From a virus: DNA of 46,559 bases. Where the stretch lies: IMG/VR virus record IMGVR_UViG_3300030108_000471, positions 1-46,559 of that record. One strand, given 5' to 3'. The position numbers and the translations under genes are program-made. Below the pieces are notes generated by a model that made no database searches, was not told the origin of the DNA, and was given only the letters and a program-made list of their open reading frames with translations. This document shows positions 2,826-15,805 of this stretch, one piece after another. Within the stretch, counting starts at the first letter, position 1. Every line of letters begins with the position of its first letter.

Positions 2826-3057
2826 AAAAGATGAACTATATCAGTATGTTATGGTAGGTAGTTATCAGACTACGGATGGTTCTACAAAAGATGTGATGGT
2901 GTATGGTAAGAGTTTATACCATTGCGTCAAGAGGGTGAAAGAAAAGGATATAAAGTTTGGTATTGATCAATTCAACACCAGTCTCAGGGGTGGATACCTA
3001 GTTGCTGACTATGATGTTTCACGACAAGCAGAAACAATTGCAAGATATATTACTTGA
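2806..3057 (+). CDS. Small hypothetical phage protein
   Basis: The product is 83 residues and overlaps the upstream gene by 20 bases, with GGAGGGAG upstream. It has a probable alpha/beta fold: YQYVMVGSYQTTDGSTKDVM strands, then a helix around YHCVKRVKEKD. It is the last gene before the integrase control region, and its stop codon falls inside the -35 element of that promoter. Confidence 0.6.
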   Translation: MEIKMIKKDELYQYVMVGSYQTTDGSTKDVMVYGKSLYHCVKRVKEKDIKFGIDQFNTSLRGGYLVADYDVSRQAETIARYIT

Positions 3058-3081
3058 CAAAGGGAAAAATATCAGTATCCT
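3054..3081 (+). promoter_or_regulatory. Sigma70-like promoter before the integrase
   Basis: A perfect -35 TTGACA at 3054-3059 is followed by a 16-base spacer and TATCCT at 3076-3081. The spacer starts AA and ends CAG, as in the capsid promoter at 38694-38721. The likely start point is near 3088, exactly where the first of three operator-like palindromes begins. It would give a ~80-nt AT-rich leader before the integrase ATG. Confidence 0.55.
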
Positions 3082-3087
3082 TATATT

Positions 3088-3146
3088 ATACTAATAGTAT
3101 ACTAATAGTATTATTATATTATATAAAATATAAATACTAATAGTAT
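3088..3146. promoter_or_regulatory. Triple 13-bp palindrome, putative operator or recombinase arm sites
   Basis: The palindrome ATACTAATAGTAT (six-base arms, one central base) occurs three times without mismatch, at 3088-3100, 3099-3111 and 3134-3146. The centres are 11 and 35 bases apart. Copies 1 and 2 overlap by two bases and cover the predicted start point of the promoter at 3054-3081. This is the layout expected for a repressor operator, or for Int/Xis arm sites close to an attachment site. The surrounding DNA is nearly pure A/T. Confidence 0.6.
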
Positions 3147-3166
3147 ACTTTAAGTAGGTGAGAAAG

Positions 3167-4051
3167 ATGAGATTTAAAACAGCAACAGCTAAATACTTGA
3201 ACAGTAGATACTTTGGTTCTTTGTCGCCTTCTTCACAGAAGGGGTACGAAAATAAGTTGAAGTCTTTCTGCAAGGATACTATCAATGGCAGGACTCTTGG
3301 AAACATAAGTATTGATAGAATCAGTGTCGTTCTTTGTGCTGATCTGTATGATACATGGGAAGCTGAGACATCCACATCTAATGCGAACCATTGCTCTAGG
3401 ATATTCTCTGTGCTCATGAACTATCTTGTGTCTATGGAATACATACCGAATAATCCTATGGCAAGAGTGAAGAAAAGAACAAGTGAACCTCGATCCGTAA
3501 TATGGACACACGATCAAGTCATGAAGTTTTTAGATACAGCATTCACAAAGTTTGAATGGAGAAACATTGGACTGATTGTGTTGATGTGTTACGAGTGGGG
3601 CCAACGTCCAGTTGATATTAGGAATTTAAAATGGGAGAACGTAGACCTAGAAAACCAAGTGGTAAAGATTACACAAACAAAACGTGGTGCTACAGTTGAA
3701 CTACCTGTTCCTGATAATATCAACAACATGTTAGTACAGCAGAAAGAAGATTGGGACTTCCAAGAATATGTAGTACCCCACCTAAGACCACAGGACAGGG
3801 CATACAGACCACTAACGGTATTTCAGATGACCCACCTACTAGGTCAAGTAAAGGACGCTGCTGGACTACCTGATGAGATACAGGTGGGTGACTTGAGAAA
3901 GACTGCCATAGTTCAAATGATAGAGAGTGAGGTGGATCACCTAGCTATTCAATCTGTGACAGGGCATAAGAACGTGGCTAGTCTGAACCCATACAATAAG
4001 TTCAGTTTAAAAACTGCAAAGTCTGCATTGGATAGGAGACAGAGACAATGA
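3167..4051 (+). CDS. int: Tyrosine-family integrase (site-specific recombinase)
   Basis: The product is 294 residues from the ATG at 3167, chosen because AGGTGAG precedes it; a GTG at 3158 is the longer alternative. The N-terminal ~95 residues form a SAM-like core-binding domain (SQKGYENKLKSFCKD). The catalytic domain shows Arg147 in GQRPVDIRNLKW, Arg244 in GDLRKT (the usual HxLR histidine is Gly here), His267 in TGHKN and the nucleophile Tyr276 in NPYNKF. It cuts and joins DNA through a phosphotyrosine link, integrating or excising the phage. It stands directly behind a promoter and palindrome array and overlaps the next gene (ATGA). No excisionase or CI-type repressor was recognised nearby. 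Confidence 0.93.
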   Translation: MRFKTATAKYLNSRYFGSLSPSSQKGYENKLKSFCKDTINGRTLGNISIDRISVVLCADLYDTWEAETSTSNANHCSRIFSVLMNYLVSMEYIPNNPMARVKKRTSEPRSVIWTHDQVMKFLDTAFTKFEWRNIGLIVLMCYEWGQRPVDIRNLKWENVDLENQVVKITQTKRGATVELPVPDNINNMLVQQKEDWDFQEYVVPHLRPQDRAYRPLTVFQMTHLLGQVKDAAGLPDEIQVGDLRKTAIVQMIESEVDHLAIQSVTGHKNVASLNPYNKFSLKTAKSALDRRQRQ

Positions 4052-4782: not shown

Positions 4783-5132
4783 GTGATAAATTAAAAATTG
4801 TACCATTGAGTATCGTAAGTATTTTTGACATTTTCAAAGAGGCATGGAATAGTATAATGACCATAGAGGATTCTCCTTTACGTCACATACAAAAGCTAGA
4901 TCCAATGGCTGCACATGCGGTGTTTCAGATACTAGCGTACATGTGGAGTGCTATTTTTGCACTGTGGATTGGTAACATTTTCTGGTTTGCTATTAGTGGT
5001 ATGGGACATACTTTGCTTATTGCTGGTATCTTTATAACTGCTATGACTTACAGAGAGGCTAACAAACGATCCAACAATGATCCAACTGATAATGTAACTA
5101 GCGGTAGAATGTTTGGAGGTGAACATGAATAG
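4779..5132 (+). CDS. Small membrane protein with about two TM segments
   Basis: The product is 117 residues. A soluble N-terminal half (~55 residues) is followed by two hydrophobic segments (AVFQILAYMWSAIFALWIG and TLLIAGIFITAMTY) and a charged C-terminal tail. Two TM helices and the small size would fit a holin, but it lies in the early arm far from the lysis hydrolase, so I do not call it one. Confidence 0.55.
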   Translation: MSDKLKIVPLSIVSIFDIFKEAWNSIMTIEDSPLRHIQKLDPMAAHAVFQILAYMWSAIFALWIGNIFWFAISGMGHTLLIAGIFITAMTYREANKRSNNDPTDNVTSGRMFGGEHE

Positions 5133-5636: not shown

Positions 5637-5866
5637 TTGATGTAGAGATGTGGGCTATAAAAGACACTGAAAAAGACAAGTTGGTGGTAACTAAATGGGG
5701 TAGGAGCACTTGGAAACATAAAATGAACCCTAACAGTGTTAATATTGTCGGATACCAACGATATGATTTTGATTGGACAACTAAACCCCCAACGCGAACG
5801 GAGAATGCTAAGTATAAAAATTTAAAGCCCATCAAGATCAGAGTAAAGGAAATTATTGATGATTAA
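5633..5866 (+). CDS. Small hypothetical protein upstream of ThyX
   Basis: The product is 77 residues, basic, with many Trp, Tyr and Lys (DFDWTTKPPTRTENAKYKNL). It overlaps thyX by 8 bases, so the two are probably translated together. No domain is recognised. Confidence 0.55.
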   Translation: MIDVEMWAIKDTEKDKLVVTKWGRSTWKHKMNPNSVNIVGYQRYDFDWTTKPPTRTENAKYKNLKPIKIRVKEIIDD

Positions 5867-6737
5867 AGCAACTATGATGGACTACATGGGTCTGGATGTT
5901 ACCGTTGTAAACGCAGCTAGAGTTAGTTTTGGTAAGAAAGTGCCACCAGGTAGAACATTTACCACAGAGGATGATAATAAACTAATTCATTATCTAGCGA
6001 AGCACAGGCACATGTCACCTTTTGGTCACTGCTTTGCCAGCTTTCATGTCCAAGCACCTATCTTTGTGGCTAGGCAGTTAGTGAAGCATAAGTTCTTACG
6101 TTGGAATGAGATCAGCCGCAGATACGTGGATGAAGAGCCTGAGTTCTACCAGCCTGACGCATGGCGAGGACGTAGCGAGGATAAGAAGCAGGGTAGTGAG
6201 GGTGTTGTATATCCTAAAACAGATACAGACTTTGTTGGTTACACTGCACTCAGAGTTTATAAAGAACTTCTTGACGAAGGTGTATGCCCAGAACAGGCGC
6301 GTATGGTACTGCCACAATCTACAATGACTGAGTGGTACTGGTCAGGTAGTCTTGATGCATGGTTTGATATGTGCAAACTACGATGCGCTTTTGATACGCA
6401 AGTAGAGACACGCCTCGTTGCTGATCAAATCAGTGATACAATGCAAACATTGTTTCCTGTGTCATGGAAAGCCTTGACAGGAGAATCAAATAATGATAAA
6501 CGTTTTGATGAGTACAGTTATTACGGAGAAAATAATCCACCAGTATCTACAAAAGATGTGTGGCATGGTAATGATCCAGTAATTGATCTAGAAAATAAAA
6601 AGGCTATTGAGAGTAGAAAGTTGTATGGGGATGATCAGATAAGACCTATGACTGACTCAGAAAAGAAGAGAGCAATGGAGAAAAAAGAATTGAATCAAGC
6701 GTGGTATGATGGAGATGGTGGGGAGTTGTTTGAGTAA
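5859..6737 (+). CDS. thyX: Flavin-dependent thymidylate synthase ThyX
   Basis: The product is 292 residues from the ATG at 5859; a TTG one codon upstream is less likely. ThyX makes dTMP from dUMP with FAD, NADPH and methylene-tetrahydrofolate. The N-terminal NAARVSFG and HMSPFGH segments match the family. The signature region reads VKHKFLRWNEISRRYVDEEPEFY, so the usual RHRx7S motif has Lys-His-Lys in place of Arg-His-Arg. The C-terminal block EQARMVLPQSTMTEWYW and the R-x-x-x-x-D-T-Q-x-E-T-R segment also fit. It abuts the primase-helicase and, with the downstream RNR, supplies DNA precursors during replication. Confidence 0.93.
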   Translation: MIKATMMDYMGLDVTVVNAARVSFGKKVPPGRTFTTEDDNKLIHYLAKHRHMSPFGHCFASFHVQAPIFVARQLVKHKFLRWNEISRRYVDEEPEFYQPDAWRGRSEDKKQGSEGVVYPKTDTDFVGYTALRVYKELLDEGVCPEQARMVLPQSTMTEWYWSGSLDAWFDMCKLRCAFDTQVETRLVADQISDTMQTLFPVSWKALTGESNNDKRFDEYSYYGENNPPVSTKDVWHGNDPVIDLENKKAIESRKLYGDDQIRPMTDSEKKRAMEKKELNQAWYDGDGGELFE

Positions 6738-8362
6738 TGGCTGAAGGAGACAACCCACATCTGCCTTGTCCCTTTGAAGAGTGTGGATCTAGCGATGCTT
6801 TCAATTGGAACGATGAGGGATATGGTTTTTGTCACAGTTGTGGCACATCTTATCCTAGTTCCAAGCCTACTTTTGATTGGGCAAAAGAGAAGTATCCAGT
6901 AAAACAAAGGATAAATATTATGGATGTAGTTGTAAAGTCTGGAACCTACGATAATATCAGAGGTATAAAACCTGATGTGTGTCAGTTGTATGGTATACAG
7001 TTGCAACTTGGTGAGGATGGTAGTCCTGTGAGGTACGCTTACAAATATCCACACACAACCAAGTACAGGTCTTACACAGATAAATCTAAGACTTGGGTAA
7101 AAGACACAGGACTTGGTATGATACATCTGTTTGGTCCAAAGTTTAATGCTGGAACTAGCAAACGTTTGTATCTTACTGAGGGAGAGTTTGATGCGGCAAG
7201 TCTGTATGAAATCCTTGGAGAAAAGTTTCCTGTCAAGTCTCTACCTAGTGCGTCCATAGGGGAGAAGTTTCTACAGAATAACCTAGATTATCTTAGATCT
7301 TTTGAGGCTGTTATTTATGCAGGAGAACTTGATACAGCAGGTAAGGCAGCAGCAGATAAAATTTATTCTGTGTTACCAGAAAAGTTCTACTATGTTCCTA
7401 TGTCCAAACACAAAGACGCCAATGACTTTCTAACTAATGGTGATGGTAAGGAACTTATGTGGGCTGCTATGAAACCACAGAAGTATTCTCCTGATAATTT
7501 CTTTATCTCTGACCAAGATGTAGAATATGCCATACTAAATGAGAATCCATACTCCTACACCCCCACAGGTCACTCAGGATTAGACTCAAAGATTCGAGGT
7601 GTGGTCAAAGGAGGTCTGACTTTTATCAAAGCACCAAGGGGTACAGGTAAGACTGAGGTAATACGTTACTTTGAAGCGGGACTGTTACGCACAAAAGAAA
7701 CAAAGATCGCACTGCTACATATGGAGGAGATGAAGTCAACAACTTATAGGGCTATGGCTACGTATCACCTTGGATGTAATGTACGTACTAATGATGATGC
7801 ACTCGCCAATGGTATCTCTATCGAAGAGGTAATTAGGGCAAGTCAGATAGCTGCTGATACAGAGAACAACAGAACCATAGTTTTTGAGATGAGGAGTCAT
7901 GATGATCCACTCAAATTACTTGATCATACCCGTACTGCGGCTACTGTGTTTGGGGCTGACTTTATATTTGTGGATCACGTACAGCGTTTAGCCTATCTAT
8001 CTAACACTGGAGTTGATGGAGCCACAAGCACACTGACTACTTTGGGATCACGCATGGCACAGTTAGCCAAAGAATTAGACATAGGTGTTGTATTTATATC
8101 ACAGGTTAATGATGATGGTAGAACAAAATATGCTGCATCCCTTGAAGAAGAAGCAATAATATGCATAAAGATTGATAGGAATGTAGAATCAGAGGATGAG
8201 ATAATACAGAATACAACTAACTTTATCGTTGACAAGAACAGACCTTTTGCTAAGTTGGGTAATGCAGGTTCAGTTTATTATGATCCTGAGACAACAATAC
8301 TTACGGAGGATGTTCCGTATACTAATGGTGGAAACGTGGTGAATTTACATGATGGTATTTGA
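6737..8362 (+). CDS. T7 gp4-like primase-helicase
   Basis: The product is 541 residues, close to T7 gp4 (566). An N-terminal zinc-binding domain has C11, C16, C32 and C35 (CPFEECGSSDA and CHSC). A TOPRIM fold follows, with LTEGEFDA near residue 146 and GELDTAGKAA near 195. The RecA-like helicase domain has Walker A RGTGKTEV near 300 and a Walker B-like FIFVDHVQ near 410. It unwinds DNA and lays RNA primers for the phage polymerase encoded next, with which it overlaps by 14 bases. The stop of thyX overlaps its start. Confidence 0.93.
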   Translation: MAEGDNPHLPCPFEECGSSDAFNWNDEGYGFCHSCGTSYPSSKPTFDWAKEKYPVKQRINIMDVVVKSGTYDNIRGIKPDVCQLYGIQLQLGEDGSPVRYAYKYPHTTKYRSYTDKSKTWVKDTGLGMIHLFGPKFNAGTSKRLYLTEGEFDAASLYEILGEKFPVKSLPSASIGEKFLQNNLDYLRSFEAVIYAGELDTAGKAAADKIYSVLPEKFYYVPMSKHKDANDFLTNGDGKELMWAAMKPQKYSPDNFFISDQDVEYAILNENPYSYTPTGHSGLDSKIRGVVKGGLTFIKAPRGTGKTEVIRYFEAGLLRTKETKIALLHMEEMKSTTYRAMATYHLGCNVRTNDDALANGISIEEVIRASQIAADTENNRTIVFEMRSHDDPLKLLDHTRTAATVFGADFIFVDHVQRLAYLSNTGVDGATSTLTTLGSRMAQLAKELDIGVVFISQVNDDGRTKYAASLEEEAIICIKIDRNVESEDEIIQNTTNFIVDKNRPFAKLGNAGSVYYDPETTILTEDVPYTNGGNVVNLHDGI

Positions 8363-10178
8363 TATAGAGGCTGATGATTTATTAGAGGATGCGACAAAGA
8401 TACATTGCATGTCGTACACCTTTGATGGAAAATCCTATGTCAGCATCTACGACTATAGCCTTATGAGAGATATGCTACTAAAACAACGCGGTCTAGTGGG
8501 TCACAATATTATTCGTTATGATATACCACTGCTAGAAAAAATACTTGGTATAAAGATTAAGGCACAGTTGTTTGATACCTTACCTATGTCTTGGGTTATA
8601 AACTACAATAGGTCACGTCACGGTCTTGAATCTTTTGGCAATGACTACGGTGTACCTAAACCTGAGATTCATGACTGGAAAAACTTAACACAGGAGGAAT
8701 ATGCGTATCGCTGTCAAGAGGATGTTAAAATAAACTACATACTTTGGCAGAATTTACTTAAACGATTTATGTTTATCTACAAAGATAAATCAGAACTCAA
8801 TCGTTTCTTTCGTTACCTACAATTCAAGATGGACTGTGCGAGAGAAGCAGAACAACAGGGCTGGAAACTAGATGTCCCAAAATCACAAAACCTTGTGCAA
8901 CAGCTTACTGATTTACAAGATCAGAAAACACAAGACCTCATTGAAGTTATGCCAATGCGTAAGGTTATGGCGATTAAAACAAAACCTAAAGTAATGAATA
9001 AAAAGGATGGCACACTATCTTCTCATGGTAAAAGATGGATCAATTTATTAAAGGAGCATGACCTACCTGAAAGCTATGATGGTGAGATAAGTGTAGTTAA
9101 AGGTGTTGAACCAGCTAACCCAATGTCCTCAGATCAAGTTAAAGATTGGCTGTTCTCTATGGGTTGGAAGCCATGCACATTCAAGTATGTAGATGATAGA
9201 AAGATACCACAGGTAAGATCCAATGGTGAACTTACATCGTCTGTCAAGAGACTTATGGAGACTAACAAACAGGTACAAGTTCTTGATGGACTGACTGTAC
9301 TACAACACAGGTTAGGTATTCTCAAAGGCTTCTTAGAGTGTGAGAGGGATGGCTATGTCAAAGCAGAGATAGCAGGTCTTACCAACACACTTAGGTTTAA
9401 ACATCAAAAGCCTCTGGTTAATCTACCAGGTGTGGATAAACCTTGGGGGATGGAGATACGTGGTTGCTTGACTGCACCAGAGGGATTTACTCTTTGTGGT
9501 GCAGACATGACTTCTCTTGAGGATACAACCAAGCGTCACTATATGCAGCCCTACGATCCTGACTACGTTGCAGAAATGTCACAGAAAGGATTTGATCCAC
9601 ATTTAGACTTGGCAAAACATGCGGGATATGTTACTCAATGCGACATAGATAAGTACAACAGGGGTGATATGCCAAAGTTAAAAGAGTTACGTAAGAACTT
9701 TAAGGTAGTAAATTACTCTGCTACTTATGGTATCGGTGCACCTAAACTCTCTCGTGAAACAAGTATGTCAGAGGGTGAAGCAAAGGATTTACTAGATGCT
9801 TATTGGAATCGTAATTGGTCTGTTAAAAAGTTTGTAGAGGATCAAAAGATACGTCACATAAACGAAGAGATGTGGGTTCAGAATCCAGTCAGTAAGTTCT
9901 GGCACAGCTTGAGGTTTGAGAAGGATGCTTTCTCTACTATCAATCAAAGCACAGGTGCCTATTGTTTTGACAGGTGGGTTGCACTATATAGATCAAGAAG
10001 ACCTAATATAGTGGGACAGTTTCATGATGAAAGTATTAACGTGATAAAGAAAGGTGAAGAGAATGAGCACACTTCTGTTTTACAGTGGGCCATAGAAAAA
10101 CTTAACGAACAATTAAAATTAAATGTTGACTTAGGTATTGATATACAGTATGGTCAAACTTATGCAGATGTACACTAA
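8349..10178 (+). CDS. Family A DNA polymerase with 3'-5' exonuclease
   Basis: The product is 609 residues. The proofreading domain is present: ExoI VFDIEADD, ExoII GHNIIRYD near 55 and ExoIII YRCQEDVKINY near 118. In the polymerase domain, motif A reads GADMTSLEDTTKRHY near 383 instead of the common DYSQIELR, keeping the Asp and Glu but losing the Arg. Motif B is KNFKVVNYSATYG near 450, with Tyr at the position equivalent to E. coli Phe762. Motif C is GQFHDES near 555. It copies the phage genome. The second ATG (8352) is an equal start. It overlaps the primase-helicase and lies 12 bases before the SSB gene. Confidence 0.94.
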   Translation: MMVFDIEADDLLEDATKIHCMSYTFDGKSYVSIYDYSLMRDMLLKQRGLVGHNIIRYDIPLLEKILGIKIKAQLFDTLPMSWVINYNRSRHGLESFGNDYGVPKPEIHDWKNLTQEEYAYRCQEDVKINYILWQNLLKRFMFIYKDKSELNRFFRYLQFKMDCAREAEQQGWKLDVPKSQNLVQQLTDLQDQKTQDLIEVMPMRKVMAIKTKPKVMNKKDGTLSSHGKRWINLLKEHDLPESYDGEISVVKGVEPANPMSSDQVKDWLFSMGWKPCTFKYVDDRKIPQVRSNGELTSSVKRLMETNKQVQVLDGLTVLQHRLGILKGFLECERDGYVKAEIAGLTNTLRFKHQKPLVNLPGVDKPWGMEIRGCLTAPEGFTLCGADMTSLEDTTKRHYMQPYDPDYVAEMSQKGFDPHLDLAKHAGYVTQCDIDKYNRGDMPKLKELRKNFKVVNYSATYGIGAPKLSRETSMSEGEAKDLLDAYWNRNWSVKKFVEDQKIRHINEEMWVQNPVSKFWHSLRFEKDAFSTINQSTGAYCFDRWVALYRSRRPNIVGQFHDESINVIKKGEENEHTSVLQWAIEKLNEQLKLNVDLGIDIQYGQTYADVH

Positions 10179-15451: not shown

Positions 15452-15636
15452 AACCTTTTGATCAAGGTAAAGTGGCTTTTATAACTGGTAATCTGGGCAA
15501 TCCTTACGAACAGAATACCAAGAATAACAGGGAGTGGGAGATGGGTTTTAACAAAGCCTATTTCTTTAACTTAGAGAGAGTTAAAGAGAATGAAAGAAAA
15601 AACAATAAGTCTCGAACAAGAGGCAAAGAAATATAA
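15403..15636 (+). CDS. Small conserved phage protein with NPY...GFNKAYFFNL motif
   Basis: The product is 77 residues, overlapping the DUF3310 gene by 49 bases; GGAG at 15391 supports the ATG at 15403. The core GNPYEQNTKNNREWEMGFNK followed by AYFFNLERVKE is a pattern seen in many marine phage proteins next to DUF3310. No function is known. The C-terminus is basic. Confidence 0.68.
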   Translation: MVSRKNARNNEGNAKVKPFDQGKVAFITGNLGNPYEQNTKNNREWEMGFNKAYFFNLERVKENERKNNKSRTRGKEI

Positions 15637-15805
15637 GAAACTACGACAGGCTAAACCACAAAAAGATAGACCATTAACAGCACGTATTTACCTTGCAGGA
15701 CAGGCTCTTGCAGGGTTACTTGCGTCTAATAGTGGTCGTGCTAGAGTTAATGATATAAAACATGAGGCTTTTGAGTGGGCAGATAAAATGTTAGAAGATG
15801 ATTAA
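15590..15805 (+). CDS. Small helical phage protein
   Basis: The product is 71 residues. A charged helix (ISLEQEAKKYKKLRQAKP) is followed by DRPLTARIYLAGQALAGLLA and an acidic end. It is the last gene of the + strand arm. Its stop codon touches the stop of the converging - strand gene with no spacer. Function unknown. Confidence 0.62.
   Translation: MKEKTISLEQEAKKYKKLRQAKPQKDRPLTARIYLAGQALAGLLASNSGRARVNDIKHEAFEWADKMLEDD

Follow-up and report, generated by a model that had tools for sequence, protein, structure and literature searches.

The palindromic array in front of the integrase gene of this marine phage is most likely one member of a pair of operators, serving the replication operon and the late operon respectively, and its effect there would most likely be repressive. 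We put the probability of this reading at roughly 0.6. Arrays of one type lie at the promoters of both operons and occur also in phages that possess no integrase gene (int), which argues for a phage-wide operator pair and against an integration switch. We refer to the array at the late operon as array 1 and to the one at the replication operon as array 2. The window, that is the whole stretch of DNA analysed, is a virus record of 46,559 bases and represents a linear fragment of the phage. Its early and replication genes run rightward from the left end, and its late genes run leftward between about 15.8 and 45.9 kb. The longer relatives mostly measure 54–58 kb, and therefore about 8 kb are probably absent from the window. 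Array 1 and its neighbouring genes lie outside the fragment, which holds array 2 only. The structural genes have homologues in phage HMO-2011. A homologue of mycobacteriophage L5 gp82 (Pfam PF25735) is encoded at 1656-2033, and the annotation of HMO-2011 also lists a gene similar to L5 gp82.

The features of array 2 are collected in Table 1. The sequence-only reading had described a TTGACA-N16-TATCCT promoter followed by three exact copies of the palindrome ATACTAATAGTAT, and all of these elements are present. The -35 hexamer TTGACA (3054-3059) is separated by a 16-bp spacer from the -10 hexamer TATCCT (3076-3081), which matches TATAAT at four of six positions and is thus a weak -10; from these hexamers transcription would start near 3088. 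The set of three is real and at the same time incomplete, as a fourth, imperfect copy (ATACTTTAAGTAG) had been missed. The four sites form two tandem pairs with a spacing of 11 bp, arranged symmetrically about 3122.5, the centre of an inverted repeat with arms at 3089-3122 and 3123-3156. The word perfect refers here to the 6-bp arms, since in a palindrome of odd length the central base has no partner. When the 100-bp intergenic stretch, which is 83% AT, was shuffled 20,000 times with its dinucleotides preserved, three identical perfect 13-bp palindromes never arose, and two arose in 15 of the shuffles. Within the window, ATACTAATAGTAT is the only perfect palindrome of such size that is repeated. 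Translation of int likely begins at the ATG at 3167.

Table 1. Coordinates of array 2 and of the operon that follows it in the window.
Feature	Position	Strand	Remark
Sigma70-type promoter TTGACA-N16-TATCCT of the int/replication operon (predicted)	3054..3081	+	Sequence; relatives
Palindromic site 1, ATACTAATAGTAT	3088..3100		Over the expected start point; homologous site in relatives
Palindromic site 2, ATACTAATAGTAT	3099..3111		11 bp from site 1
AT-rich centre between the site pairs	3112..3133		Itself a strong dyad in several relatives
Palindromic site 3, ATACTAATAGTAT	3134..3146		Exact copy
Palindromic site 4, ATACTTTAAGTAG	3145..3157		One arm mismatch; fourth site also in relatives
Whole array as one inverted repeat	3089..3156		68 bp, 34-nt arms, 82% complementary
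Tyrosine integrase (int), Pfam PF00589	3167..4051	+	First gene after the array
ThyX, primase-helicase, DNA polymerase	5856..10178	+	Downstream genes of the array-led operon

The same plan with altered letters (e.g., TACTTAAAGTA, TACTTAAGTA, TACTATAGTA) is found upstream of int in IMG/VR relatives, whose integrases are mostly 69–82% identical (56% in L020). Their arrays consist of two pairs around an AT-rich centre and mostly follow directly after a TTGAC-type -35; in part of them a TATAAT-like -10 stands just before the array. A scan for clusters of ACT-N2/3-AGT in 219 loci (2.7 Mb, with some overlap) gave 144 clusters, compared with three after shuffling. Among the non-redundant loci with an integrase, 37 of 43 carry an array within 450 bp upstream of int. 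Conservation of the palindromes in relatives had been proposed as a check; it holds, with a promoter beside them, and the palindromes resemble regulator sites. Several side features were seen in these upstream regions. A second palindrome, GTGACA-N-TGTCAC-like, lies directly upstream of the array in L006, L008, L013, and L020, where it shares bases with the stop codon of the gene in front and stands just before the -35. A conserved micro-ORF (MDDPHDDCTHWIGKI and variants) lies just upstream of int in L005-L014 and L017, and in many relatives with integrase it terminates on, or runs into, the start codon of int; places of this motif are L005 about 4955-5002, L045 5053-5307, and L052 1019-1192, and it is also contained in gp18 of CRP-2 and in an ORF of L052, which lacks int.

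Searching by DNA pattern also revealed arrays before the replication genes of relatives without recognisable integrase. Among loci lacking int, 27 of 31 have an array within 5.5 kb upstream of the primase-helicase gene, and equal stretches downstream have none (0/26). The cultured phages CRP-9 and CRP-13 carry both arrays, and the annotations of the stretches examined list no integrase in either. Conversely, L073, L074, and L077 possess int and a good promoter with no array. Array presence therefore does not track int. These observations bear on the earlier proposal that the sites form a dedicated integration or lysogeny switch bound by a winged-helix protein encoded at 1245-1643. The position of the array before int is what such a switch would predict, but the array is independent of int and recurs at the late-operon promoter. 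No homologue of the winged-helix protein turned up in the search of the other loci with arrays; the seven IMG/VR relatives of this protein lie in loci without a detectable array, six with an integrase of 36% identity and three with a 42–48% homologue of the 84-aa protein discussed below. We thus give the switch next to no credence and have dropped the 1245-1643 protein as the regulator. In the lineages that have it, int appears to be merely the first gene of the replication operon.

An unbiased scan of IMG/VR with a two-site motif returned 65 stretches, mostly from this phage group. Nearly every high-scoring array locus had the 84-aa gene or a primase-helicase gene, and most of the remaining stretches resemble chance matches. 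The array-1 regions of HMO-2011 and CRP-207/345/603 contain other palindromes or dyads (HMO-2011 CACTTAAGTG, CRP-345 ACACTTAAAGTG), no TACT sites occur in the array-1 region of CRP-2, and array 2 was undetected in the scanned stretches of HMO-2011 and CRP-2. Our literature search brought up no account of the array.

Array 1 occupies the region from which the late operon runs leftward and the early genes run rightward. It stands beside a gene for an 84-aa protein in every near-complete genome, at a distance of roughly 40–200 bp, and this gene opens the late operon. Both arrays reach the detection threshold in 10 of 12 near-complete relatives and array 1 alone in the other two, and the scan of these genomes gave a few low-scoring clusters besides the expected positions. 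The promoters leading into array 1 are of the form TTGACA-N16..18-TATAAT, exact in several cases, and face the late operon. In the promoters found, the sites sit a few bp from the -10 and overlap the -10/+1 region of the predicted starts; at array 2, a good part of the relatives gave no match to a consensus promoter. Another family of palindromes, AGTTTAACNTTAAACT-like, was observed in CRP-9 and CRP-13, at the right ends of L220 (MW514246.1 50000-56157) and L222 (MW514247.1 50000-55022). These palindromes occupy the non-coding region that precedes the first early gene, and they are perhaps operators of a second regulator.

The location of array 2 directly upstream of int raises the question of an attP site, with a central core repeat, integrase arm sites on both sides, and autoregulation of int. 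The arms are symmetric around a central dyad that is strong in 7 of 20 cases at p<=0.05 (lineages with integrase), although in the window by itself the dyad at 3112..3133 is not significant (p 0.13). Moreover, in four relatives the array and int are separated by a tRNA-Arg gene. Complete tRNA-Arg(TCT) genes are located at L005 4874-4950, L007 2227-2303, L009 3722-3798, and L010 4875-4951, and L012 keeps only the 5' part. The symmetry around the dyad made attP convincing until the carriers without int and array 1 turned up: an array of identical type is present in phages with no integrase to use it and again at the late promoter, and relatives with integrase and no array exist. The window integrase was matched in its catalytic domain only; the rest, about 113 residues, could hold a core-binding domain but probably no arm-binding domain in addition. 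An integrated close relative was not found in GTDB genomes. We therefore consider attP very improbable. In L019, L020, and L119, the reading frame upstream of the matched integrase region points to an additional N-terminal domain of some 75 residues.

A transcription-primed replication origin, built from a promoter and AT-rich iterons and present at two places, would account for the 83% AT, the iteron-like repeats, the promoter reading in, and the adjacent replication genes. GC skew speaks against it, being alike on both sides of array 2 in seven of nine genomes and never changing sign there; at array 1 the sign does change, but this coincides with divergent transcription. The origin was rejected for the lack of a sign change at array 2, and we rate it as poorly as attP.

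The most serious competitor places the function in the transcript. The array would then encode a long 5'-leader hairpin starting at about +1, which might protect the mRNA or, in the manner of T7-type messages, serve as a substrate of RNase III, and the DNA palindromes would be by-products of a repeated stem. A long conserved stem is indeed present in the transcripts of many relatives. The window array RNA (3086-3160) folds at -20.7 kcal/mol (z -3.4), and array-2 transcripts in general give much more stable folds than their shuffled versions (median z -4.3, lowest -8), as do those of array 1 to a lesser degree (median z -3.0). When the sites were kept and their order, orientation, and centre were randomised, the folds became weaker in 15 of 31 relatives (p<=0.05), which are related and hence not independent; the same test was neutral for the window (p 1.0 and 0.65). 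In L072, L083, and L119, all with integrase, the ACT..AGT sites are eroded while the long inverted repeat is kept with a hairpin z of -3.7 to -5.4, and this favours the hairpin. On the other hand, a stem does not require local 11-bp palindromes inside each arm, and array 1 often has 5–7 sites and folds unevenly. That the array acts mainly through the leader RNA is unlikely in our estimation, if clearly less so than attP or an origin. The site-preserving result together with the persistent dyad in L072, L083, and L119 indicates that the overall symmetry is probably real in the group, with a role either in the leader RNA or in the symmetric binding of a protein complex to the DNA.

In the operator-pair reading that we prefer, each array sits just behind, or overlaps, the predicted start of a strong promoter of the host (sigma70) type, with array 2 leading the int/thyX/primase-helicase/polymerase operon and array 1 the leftward late operon. 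A phage-encoded DNA-binding protein would occupy each TACT-N2/3-AGTA palindrome, most likely as a dimer, and neighbouring dimers about one helical turn apart would bind cooperatively. The bound protein would repress the two promoters either before or after a given stage of infection, and int, in the lineages having it, would come under this control solely by heading the replication operon. While the sites, their geometry and conservation, their proximity to promoters, their double occurrence, and their independence from int are direct observations, we infer from them the protein binding, the repressive effect, and the early-versus-late timing.

The sequence-only reading had recognised no CI-like repressor, and indeed no CI/Cro-like gene is conserved among the relatives; an XRE-type gene was noted only in L168. 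Part of the reason why a repressor escaped recognition may be that the fragment lacks array 1 and its neighbouring genes. Our best candidate for the regulator, proposed tentatively and at clearly less than even odds, is the 84-aa protein encoded beside array 1, whose candidacy is based on position and conservation. It corresponds to gp73 in CRP-9 and to gp74 in CRP-13. The family is present in all 12 near-complete genomes and in HMO-2011, and it is the only small protein found in 12 of 12 outside the packaging, structural, replication, and nucleotide-metabolism genes, as judged partly by reading the gene list. An AlphaFold2 model built from 19 IMG/VR sequences shows four helices and is all helical (pLDDT 78), and an initial assignment as a ribbon-helix-helix protein was dropped for this reason. 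Comparison of the model with the PDB by Foldseek and VIA-align gave nothing above Z 2.7, and a viral library gave one unnamed phage protein of note and no match of known function. Conservation of the protein in CRP-2, whose array-1 region is without the TACT motif, counts against the operator reading. At about 1023-1060 of L128 and at equivalent places, a TTGAC-N17-TATAAC promoter lies very close to the 84-aa start codon, and the mRNA may thus be leaderless. A host protein is also a possible regulator. The small protein at 15590-15805 of the window, taken by eye for a ribbon-helix-helix regulator, was set aside because its homologue matched no protein family; it also resembles a common small phage protein. 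A broader scenario, in which the 84-aa protein founds a novel regulator family controlling the replication and late operons through arrays that double as leader hairpins, and so provides temporal control with the host polymerase in phages of which many have no integrase, is doubtful at present.

Through their structural genes these phages are related to the HMO-2011-type group, which according to the passages of PMC9038755 consulted is dominant and widespread in the ocean; these passages make no statement on the timing of its genes. A pair of conserved operators, one at the replication promoter and one at the late promoter, would offer a direct handle on such timing, and CRP-9, which infects FZCC0023, and CRP-13 are cultured carriers. 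It also gives reason for caution, as sites near an integrase gene should not be read as a lysogeny switch.

Several known systems resemble the arrays in part. The lambda operators OL/OR, bound by CI and Cro, likewise form two multi-site palindromic arrays per genome, kilobases apart, that overlap the sigma70 promoters of two operons. Here, however, the sites are TACT-N2/3-AGTA, number four or more, and stand in two symmetric pairs, and the promoters lead the replication and late operons. No CI/Cro-like gene is conserved, many carriers have no integrase, and control of lysogeny does not fit an array that is kept in relatives without one. Operators of ribbon-helix-helix proteins such as P22 Arc and Mnt have short half-sites with dimers about one turn apart and are served by a small regulator. 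Half-sites, spacing, and the presumed size of the regulator are alike here, whereas none of the conserved genes was recognised as coding for a ribbon-helix-helix protein and the 84-aa candidate is predicted to be all helical. The stoperators of mycobacteriophage L5 are many short copies through which one phage repressor silences several operons; the many short copies are shared, but stoperators are asymmetric and scattered, and the sites described here are palindromic and confined to two arrays. Finally, in the regulation of the KplE1 integrase intS from its att region (PMC2951348), the sites also lie in the int promoter region, whereas the present array is not tied to int and is repeated at another operon.
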